This document shows, in pieces, positions 13,789 through 16,422 of a stretch of DNA of 39,303 nucleotides; position 1 is the first letter of the stretch, and every line of letters starts with the position of its first letter. Origin of the DNA: Flavobacteriaceae bacterium (lineage in GTDB: Bacteria; Bacteroidota; Bacteroidia; Flavobacteriales; Flavobacteriaceae). The notes beneath the pieces were generated by a model. It was not told where the DNA came from. It worked only from the letters and a program-made list of their open reading frames with translations, and made no database searches. The position numbers were made by a program, and so were the translations under genes. The DNA lies in the NCBI GenBank assembly GCA_017856205.1, contig JAFMFL010000005.1, forward strand, positions 1-39,303, written 5' to 3'.

Positions 13789-14180
13789 TGGCGTCTATTT
13801 TTAGCCGAATTATTGCACGCAAACTTCCCGCCTATATTGTTGCGGAAGACGACAAGCATATTGCTTTTTTAGATATCAATCCCAATGCTTTTGGGCATAC
13901 ACTTTGTGTACCAAAAAAAGAAGTGGATAAGTTATTTGATTTAGATGAAGAATCCTACTTGGCATTGATGCAATTTAGCCGCCGCGTGGGTGTAGCACTA
14001 AAACAAGTAGTACCTTGCAAACGAATTGGTTTAACAGTTATTGGTTTGGAAGTACCGCATGTTCATGTTCATTTGATTCCACTTAACGAAATGGCAGACG
14101 CTACCTTTCAAAAAAAGGTTTCGCCTTCTAAGGAGGAGATGAAAACCCTTGCCGAAAAAATCAGTGCGGCTGTTGTGTAA
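13788..14180 (+). CDS. HIT family protein
   Basis: MASIFSRIIARKLPAYIVAEDDKHIAFLDINPNAFGHTLCVPKKE...VIGLEVPHVHVHLIP (HxHxH). Confidence 0.95.
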   Translation: MASIFSRIIARKLPAYIVAEDDKHIAFLDINPNAFGHTLCVPKKEVDKLFDLDEESYLALMQFSRRVGVALKQVVPCKRIGLTVIGLEVPHVHVHLIPLNEMADATFQKKVSPSKEEMKTLAEKISAAVV

Positions 14181-15336
14181 GCGGTAGTTGAATCTCAAAA
14201 GTCGATCCTTTTTCGGAGCTTTCTACAAGTCTTAGTTTGCCTCCGTGATATTGTTCCACAATACGTTTTGCCAAAGATAATCCGAGCCCCCAGCCTCTTT
14301 TTTTGGTGGTAACACCAGGTTTAAAAATAGTTTTCTGAATTTTTTTTGGAATACCGCTTCCTGTATCTCGAACCTTAACCATTGCCGTGTTTTCCCAAAT
14401 TAAATCAATCGTGATTGACCCTTTTCCCCGAATCGAATCTATGCTGTTTTTGATTAAATTTTCCAGTACCCACGCAATAAGTTCTGCATTGATTTCAACC
14501 AAATCTTCATGACCACTTTTGTTAACACGAAGCGTAATTCCTTTTGGCATCCGAATTTCCATATACGATACCAGGTCATAAACTACAGTGCTCAGCTTCA
14601 TATCTGTTTTGTTTGGTAGTGAGCCAATTTTAGAAAACCGCGCACTAATCGTCTCCAAACGTTTGATATCGCTTTTTATTTGGGCTAATATCTTCTTGTC
14701 TATATCGTGCTGCTCTAAAATAGTTAGCCAGCCTAAAAGAGAAGAAATGGGTGTTCCCAATTGATGTGCTGTTTCTTTTGCCATTCCAGTCCATAGCTTA
14801 TTGGAAATGACCTTCTGCGTACTTTTATAATAGGCAACCACGATACCTCCTAAAAAGAGCACAATCAGATAAAAAGCAATGGGATAATAGCGTAATTGAT
14901 TAATCAACTTAGAATTCCCGTAATACATTTTTTGGTTCAAATTGTCTCCGTAGACGATTTCTATTGGTGGATGCGTAGTGCTAAATTCCTGAATTAATTT
15001 CTCCACATACCCAACAGAGTCTTGCGCTAATTTCCGTTGATTTATATTATTTGAAAAGAGTAGATTTTTTTCGCTATCTACCACAATCATAGGAATGCTG
15101 TTTTCCCCTGTCAGCACTTGAAATGTTAATGGATCAACAGCTTGATTAAGATCTGTGCTAGAGGCTAGGTCTTGCTGTGCCAAGCCCCAAAGTTCCATCT
15201 GTTGACGCTCATCTTGTTGAATACGCTGAATAAGTTTATTGGTGTTCCAAAGTGTAAACCCAACAAAGCAAAGGGCTAACACAAAGCCTGTCGTACGGAT
15301 GTTTCGTTGGTTTACATAAGAGAAGTCAAATCTCAT
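14161..15336 (-). CDS. Membrane sensor histidine kinase, no adjacent response regulator
   Basis: Two TM segments, H-box AKETAHQLGTPISSLLGWL, N-box ENLIKNSIDSI, G-boxes VRDTGSGIP, KRGWGLGLSLAKRIVEQYHGG. Confidence 0.93.
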   Translation of the reverse strand: MRFDFSYVNQRNIRTTGFVLALCFVGFTLWNTNKLIQRIQQDERQQMELWGLAQQDLASSTDLNQAVDPLTFQVLTGENSIPMIVVDSEKNLLFSNNINQRKLAQDSVGYVEKLIQEFSTTHPPIEIVYGDNLNQKMYYGNSKLINQLRYYPIAFYLIVLFLGGIVVAYYKSTQKVISNKLWTGMAKETAHQLGTPISSLLGWLTILEQHDIDKKILAQIKSDIKRLETISARFSKIGSLPNKTDMKLSTVVYDLVSYMEIRMPKGITLRVNKSGHEDLVEINAELIAWVLENLIKNSIDSIRGKGSITIDLIWENTAMVKVRDTGSGIPKKIQKTIFKPGVTTKKRGWGLGLSLAKRIVEQYHGGKLRLVESSEKGSTFEIQLPLTQQPH

Positions 15337-15364: not shown

Positions 15365-15393
15365 TTGCATTCGCAACAAATTGAGTAAATTTG
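15365..15393 (+). promoter_or_regulatory. Candidate promoter (TTG-N18-TAAATTTG) of the DUF3127 gene
   Basis: TTG 15365-15367, TAAATTTG 15386-15393; ATG at 15416. Confidence 0.55.
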
Positions 15394-15415: not shown

Positions 15416-15781
15416 ATGGAAATTATTGGAAAAATAAAACAAATAGACGACACCAAAGAGTACGGGTCAAACGGCTTTCAAAAACGTGAATTGGTTATCA
15501 CAACCGAAGAGCAATACCCTCAACACCTTCTCGTTGAATTTGTGCAAGACAAGTGTTCACTTCTTAATGCATTTGCTGTTGGGCAGCGTGTAAAAGTGGG
15601 AATCAACCTTCGTGGACGTGAGTGGCAAAGTCCGCAAGGTGAAATCAAATACTTCAATTCCATTCAAGGTTGGCGCATAGACGCTGTCGAAGCAACAACG
15701 CCACCTCCTCCTGCTGCACCGCCATTTGAAACCATGCCAGATGCACCTGCAAAAGAAGAGCCAGACGATTTGCCCTTCTAA
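15416..15781 (+). CDS. DUF3127 family protein, OB-fold/SSB-like candidate with SSB-Ct-like tail
   Basis: MEIIGKIKQIDDTKEYGSNGFQKRELVITTEEQYPQHLLVEFVQDKCSLLNAFAVGQRVKVGINLRGREWQSPQGEIKYFNSIQGWRID + Pro-rich linker + EEPDDLPF. Confidence 0.85.
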   Translation: MEIIGKIKQIDDTKEYGSNGFQKRELVITTEEQYPQHLLVEFVQDKCSLLNAFAVGQRVKVGINLRGREWQSPQGEIKYFNSIQGWRIDAVEATTPPPPAAPPFETMPDAPAKEEPDDLPF

Positions 15782-15789
15782 CTAAAAGC

Positions 15790-16422
15790 ATGTATCATTT
15801 ATCGGAAGAATTGCGTTTTCCTTCGCCCCACTTGGCCACTGAAGAGGGTATTGTTGCTGTGGGTGGTGACTTACGCCCCGAAAGGGTACTATTGGCATAC
15901 CAAAAAGGCATTTTTCCATGGTTTGAGCAAGATGAGTTTTTGATTTGGTGGAGTCCAGATCCTCGAATGGTGCTCTTTCCAGAACAATTGCGTATTTCAA
16001 AAAGTATGCGCAATTTTTTGCGCAAACATCCCTATGAAATTACGTTTAACAAAGCTTTTAACGAAGTTGTAAAATCCTGTGCGGGAGTTAAACGATTTGG
16101 TCAAACAGGCACATGGATTACGCCAGGATTGATGGAAGTTTACGGAGTTTTGCACGAACAAGGACACGCACACTCGGTAGAGGTTTGGGATGGCGCTGAG
16201 CTTGTAGGGGGGCTTTACGGCATAGACGTGGGTCAAGTGTTTTGCGGAGAAAGTATGTTTTCTCGAGCAAGTAATTCCAGTAAGTTGGCACTGATTTATC
16301 TCACTCGTGAACTAAAGAAAAACAAATACAAACTCATTGACTGTCAGGTGCCTACAGCACATTTGGCAAGTATGGGCGCCACACCAATTTCTCGCAAAGA
16401 ATTTCTTAGCTATTTGGACTAA
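15790..16422 (+). CDS. aat: Leucyl/phenylalanyl-tRNA--protein transferase
   Basis: FPSPHLATEEGIVAVGGDLRPERVLLAYQKGIFPWFEQDEFLIWWSPDPRMVLFPE...VFCGESMFSRASNSSKLAL. Confidence 0.97.
   Translation: MYHLSEELRFPSPHLATEEGIVAVGGDLRPERVLLAYQKGIFPWFEQDEFLIWWSPDPRMVLFPEQLRISKSMRNFLRKHPYEITFNKAFNEVVKSCAGVKRFGQTGTWITPGLMEVYGVLHEQGHAHSVEVWDGAELVGGLYGIDVGQVFCGESMFSRASNSSKLALIYLTRELKKNKYKLIDCQVPTAHLASMGATPISRKEFLSYLD

Follow-up and report, generated by a model that had tools for sequence, protein, structure and literature searches.

What a small protein assigned to a family filed as unknown, DUF3127, might do with a C-terminal tip of the kind carried by single-stranded DNA binding proteins (SSBs) is the question raised by a gene at positions 15416..15781 (+ strand) of the window, by which we mean the whole 39,303-nucleotide stretch of Flavobacteriaceae DNA analysed here. 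The open reading frame runs from an ATG start to a TAA stop and encodes 121 amino acids ending in ...AKEEPDDLPF; the initial annotation had placed EEPDDLPF exactly at this end, which the translation bore out. Its assignment to DUF3127 was equally sound, with residues 2-88 matching the Pfam family (PF11325, E=4.5e-30, 104.1 bits against a gathering cut-off of 27). On the + strand, the protein divides into a predicted OB-fold domain (residues 1-90, 15416..15685), a Pro-rich linker predicted to be disordered (residues 91-113, 15686..15754; pLDDT about 55-64) and the acidic tip (residues 114-121, 15755..15778). That a Pro-rich linker follows the first ∼90 residues had also been noted, and it is evident both in the composition of residues 92-121 (10 Pro, 7 acidic and 1 basic) and in the low pLDDT of this region.

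The surroundings of the gene gave few clues to its role. A possible Bacteroidota-type promoter was picked out by eye at 15365..15393 (+ strand; TTG at 15365-15367, an 18-base spacer and TAAATTTG at 15386-15393), judged against what we take to be the Bacteroidota consensus; scans for sigma-70 promoters and terminators gave nothing better than shuffled sequence. Upstream lies a divergent sensor histidine kinase gene (14161..15336, − strand; PF02518, E=2.7e-21), which synteny indicates is a conserved neighbour in the family. Downstream, aat, encoding leucyl/phenylalanyl-tRNA-protein transferase (15790..16422, + strand; PF03588, E=7e-74), starts 8 bases past the DUF3127 stop codon and adjoins DUF3127 in 6 of the 6 Flavobacteriaceae loci checked, although its function is probably unrelated. 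Both neighbours were considered as a functional clue; they were seen in the Flavobacteriaceae loci alone and judged uninformative. The neighbourhoods of host DUF3127 genes in 80 named genomes revealed no conserved DNA-metabolism operon.

The structure of the window protein was modelled as a monomer with AlphaFold2, using 40 homologues. Block mean pLDDT was 92-96 over residues 1-90, and the last 30 residues were of low confidence, as expected of a flexible tail. The model contains strands at residues 2-10, 21-30 and 37-43, a helix at 44-52, and strands at 58-71 and 77-90. When it was compared with the PDB using Foldseek, all 50 matches listed were bacterial SSBs (best E=1.1e-6, TM-score on the target up to 0.75), so the OB fold that had been guessed from the letters alone is what the model shows. 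Among predicted viral structures, the named matches were DUF3127 proteins and phage SSBs. A second AlphaFold model, of a distant host homologue, kept the five long strands, and its Foldseek matches, which were marginal (E about 1e-3), comprised SSB, archaeal SSB, PriB and RPA folds. From these models, the N-terminal domain of DUF3127 is predicted to adopt an SSB-type OB fold.

Comparison at the sequence level was much less telling. A phmmer search with the single window protein against PDB sequences returned nothing useful and the DUF3127 family profile reached an SSB chain (5odp) with E=2.3 at best, so that sequence alone does not reach SSB. The window protein gave no match to the bacterial SSB family PF00436 in the Pfam search (the best among 40 homologues had E=0.057), and NCBIfam holds no model for DUF3127. 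IF3_C (E=0.052) and other weak Pfam matches of DUF3127 fell below cut-off and were rejected. Comparison of OB-only profiles of DUF3127 and Bacteroidota SSBs with hhalign was weak (probability 13.6%, E=0.002), and the alignment rests mostly on G-x-x-V-x-V...R-x-W, with GREW of DUF3127 sitting opposite TRKW of SSB. This weak alignment sets W70 of the window protein opposite the tryptophan equivalent to W88 of E. coli SSB, one of the listed base-stacking residues (PMC3991886); of the E. coli stacking aromatics W40, W54, F60 and W88, only W88 seems to have a convincing equivalent in DUF3127. Conserved aromatic and basic positions of the family include F/W21, K23, Y34, W/Y/F70, Y/W79, F/Y80, W86 and R/K87, residues of these two kinds being retained at 21, 23, 34, 46, 68, 70, 79, 80, 86 and 87. 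The term 'SSB paralog' used in the initial annotation is therefore valid for the fold and layout but not for the sequence family, because there is no PF00436 match and the profile comparison of the OB domains is weak.

The acidic tip proved to be the most conserved feature of the protein. Homologues were collected with an OB-domain profile or with patterns lying outside the tip, so counting tips among them is not circular. Terminal PF was present in all 106 distinct bacterial DUF3127 proteins, drawn from across the Bacteroidota, with [DE]x0-1[LIVMA]PF ending 104 of them and DLPF 84; an acidic tip of the (D/E)DLPF kind, whose conservation had been proposed as a check, is thus kept in the host proteins. 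The control set, made up of 826 other open frames near the DUF3127 genes of named genomes, each at least 150 aa long, contained none that ended in [DE]x0-1[LIVM]PF. The tip is beyond chance. A scan of the window's own genome (1.41 Mb, 83% complete) for GANNTNCCNTTYTRR, representing an acidic residue, xPF and a stop, gave 13 DNA matches, only three of which end frames longer than 60 aa: those of the canonical SSB, DUF3127 and DnaB. In two other genomes the pattern scan found two more tip-like frame ends, EIDLPF and QDELPF, indicating that a bare [DE]LPF end can arise by chance in larger genomes; the QDELPF end belongs to a 285-aa open frame, which could be a further tip-bearing protein or a chance match.

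The confinement of the tip, among own-genome frames longer than 60 aa, to SSB, DUF3127 and DnaB bears on the idea that DUF3127 is an RNA-binding OB protein, related to cold shock or translation, that carries its tip incidentally. OB folds often bind RNA, and both the sub-threshold match to IF3_C and the adjoining aat gene of the Flavobacteriaceae would fit such a role, but the restricted occurrence of the tip does not, and the Foldseek matches listed were SSBs rather than cold-shock or S1 domains. Taken with the DNA recombination context of the phage copies described below, this makes an RNA-binding role highly improbable.

Of 393 genomes sampled from the phylum, 219 carry DUF3127, nearly always as one copy; for the window's class the figure is 102 of 105, not counting the window's own genome, and the other three class members had no detectable copy. 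Named carriers include Runella, Emticicia, Dysgonomonas, Flavihumibacter, Chryseolinea and a Marinifilum assembly, the named genomes leaning towards other orders of Bacteroidota, as they were found with a non-flavobacterial subset of the alignment. A plasmid search for DUF3127 gave only four weak records. A canonical SSB, with which comparison had been suggested at the outset, does exist in the same genome; it adjoins a mutY-like gene and has a similar tail (...PASDDDLPF). This genome also encodes a 108-aa PF00436 SSB that has neither linker nor tip (L003:1486-1812), beside a CBS-domain-like protein, and a similar tail-less PF00436 protein was seen in another genome. A canonical SSB is encoded in each of the 25 genomes checked, of which 22 have DUF3127 and three do not, so DUF3127 is an addition to SSB and not a replacement for it. 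PriA and RecO, which are known SSB-tip partners elsewhere, are both encoded in the window's own genome.

The family is also carried by phages, DUF3127 being present in 115 phage records, nearly all with Flavobacteriaceae hosts. The window protein matched the PHROG 4932 profile (phrog_4932, 'single strand DNA binding protein') over its full length, tail included (residues 1-121 on profile positions 1-117 of 117, E=4.1e-45). The same profile matched 40 of 40 DUF3127 members, and other phage SSB families matched weakly. RefSeq phage DUF3127 records are labelled 'single strand DNA binding protein', and a Pantoea phage paper, the only one on DUF3127 found among 5.39 million open papers, noted an SSB with a DUF3127 domain. 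The statement in the initial annotation that DUF3127 lacks an assigned function consequently does not wholly hold; the chromosomal copy is still called DUF3127. No mention of PF11325 was found in the open-access literature searched, nor any experiment on the family; the phage family has been labelled SSB by computation, and there seems to be no description in that literature, most subscription journals lying outside it, of the tip or of the chromosomal copy that is so widely conserved.

In Nonlabens phage P12024L the gene order is Erf annealing protein, YqaJ exonuclease, DUF3127, one small gene, DUF3310 and primase, and in Cellulophaga phages genes for a RecT annealing protein and DnaA lie near DUF3127. 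A YqaJ-type exonuclease gene was located at most three genes from DUF3127 in 25 of 49 phage loci (IMG/VR), directly upstream in 22 of these. None of 39 phage contigs with DUF3127 had a PF00436 SSB above cut-off, although many are fragments, which makes its absence less certain for any one contig. In phages of these bacteria DUF3127 thus appears to be the sole SSB-type protein in use. Terminal PF was present in 29 of 43 distinct phage DUF3127 proteins; most of the others are only 88-95 aa long and end where the OB domain does. Since some phage copies of this length have lost the tip, there are settings in which it can be dispensed with. These short copies, which have neither linker nor tip, are still near a YqaJ exonuclease gene in most cases. 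One record, IMGVR_UViG_3300020045_005114, has two different DUF3127 genes, both products ending in LPF; the second (E=1.1e-21 to PF11325, ending DDLPF) looks nearer to the non-Flavobacteriaceae type.

The phage loci are informative about whether DUF3127 might instead be a tip-bearing regulator, its OB domain binding DNA poorly or binding something else, which would occupy SSB-tip pockets as a competitor or adaptor and so tune the partners of SSB. In favour of this, the tip is conserved above all else in DUF3127, and the OB domain is without most of the recognisable ssDNA contacts of PF00436; moreover, every DUF3127 genome checked has a canonical SSB, so that bulk coating of ssDNA is already provided. 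However, phages without a PF00436 SSB keep DUF3127 beside exonuclease and annealing-protein genes, and some phage copies without a tip retain the OB domain. This context and the tip-less copies fit ssDNA binding better than competition for tip pockets, and we regard a mainly regulatory role as quite unlikely.

The third protein found in the tip scan, DnaB (C96:9743-11257), ends in SSSDDDMPF, on a tail outside the helicase domain. Among 30 Flavobacteriaceae genomes (own included), DnaB ended in [DE][VMI]PF in 29 and in DIPY in one; across families of the phylum a PF end was seen in 23 of 29 and an F end in 28 of 29, in most cases preceded by acidic residues. One genome has a second copy of DnaB, which has no acidic tip. 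Judged from these C-termini, DnaB of the phylum seems to end in an SSB-like acidic tip, and the open-access literature searched contained no report of it. A tip that partner proteins are known to read on SSB would be an unexpected feature of a helicase.

A tip on DnaB could suggest tip-based loading, and would be compatible with DUF3127 acting as a PriB-like primosome factor, that is, as an OB protein on ssDNA at stalled forks that helps PriA to load DnaB. DUF3127 is an OB protein about as small as PriB, PriB folds were among the weak matches of the second model (ranks 9 and 48), and PriA is present in the genome. Nevertheless, no PriB was among the 50 PDB matches listed for the window protein, and the phage context is one of exonuclease and annealing protein, not helicase loading alone. 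In addition, PriB is described in PMC8509808 as being without the SSB C-terminal region, which DUF3127 has in every distinct host homologue. A PriB-like function is accordingly unlikely.

The interpretation of DUF3127 as an SSB-like protein is supported, and we consider it very probable that it serves Bacteroidota and their phages as a compact, dedicated protein of SSB type, binding ssDNA and using its tip to recruit genome-maintenance proteins. The N-terminal OB domain would bind ssDNA, and the protein is probably oligomeric, so that several acidic D-D-L-P-F tips would be displayed, one at the end of each flexible Pro-rich linker. They may then dock in the SSB-tip pockets of enzymes such as PriA, RecO, RecQ and similar, bringing them to the ssDNA. 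This arrangement, with the OB domain on ssDNA, the tips held out on linkers and partners recruited, is likely, given the predicted structure and the conservation. In phages without a PF00436 SSB, DUF3127 would be the phage SSB serving a Red-type module of exonuclease and annealing protein. In the cell it would act beside the canonical SSB, most plausibly on ssDNA arising from recombination, repair or fork restart; such a division of labour, with DUF3127 as a second SSB for these processes, may well exist, an idea that we place just short of probable. A broader and more doubtful possibility is that canonical SSB, DUF3127 and DnaB all bring a tip to the replication forks of the Bacteroidota, where the three compete for shared tip-binding partners or pass them on to one another, and that DUF3127, as a phylum-specific second SSB, is also the source or a derivative of the recombination modules of Flavobacteria phages.

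A protein that is near-universal in the sampled class is still classed as unknown, yet its predicted fold and its tail suggest a core role in DNA maintenance. Should it prove to be a second SSB, two tip-bearing SSBs would have to be reckoned with in work on replication, repair and genetic tools for the Bacteroidota, which include gut, oral, fish-disease and environmental species, and a DUF3127 partner may be needed in recombineering systems derived from phages of these bacteria, as Sak4 needs its own SSB.

Among the nearest known systems is the bacterial SSB family PF00436, including E. coli SSB and B. subtilis SsbA, which has, like DUF3127, an OB fold (predicted in DUF3127), a disordered Pro-rich linker and an acidic tip ending in PF, and which is found with it in a genome that encodes PriA and RecO. 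DUF3127 differs in having a shorter OB domain (about 88 residues compared with 105), in having no PF00436 match and in occurring on top of the canonical SSB. PHROG 4932 is the same family as DUF3127, as the full-length match indicates, but PHROGs is restricted to viruses and the label was assigned computationally, whereas the nearly ubiquitous chromosomal copy still goes by DUF3127. In phage HK620 the SSB can recruit and stimulate the Sak4 annealing protein only with its last six residues, NDYPPF (PMC5928155); like phage DUF3127, this SSB is encoded beside a single-strand annealing protein gene, but its role was tested by experiment, whereas that of DUF3127 is a proposed one, and the two may belong to different sequence families. 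Second SSBs of the SsbB type, in S. pneumoniae and B. subtilis, are described in PMC3128108 as having a separate role on ssDNA beside the main SSB; SsbB is a paralogue from within the SSB family that serves competence, whereas DUF3127 represents a different sequence family, distributed across a phylum and the phages that infect it. Finally, PriB is an OB fold without the SSB C-terminal region, from which DUF3127 is set apart by a tip present in 106 of 106 distinct host homologues.
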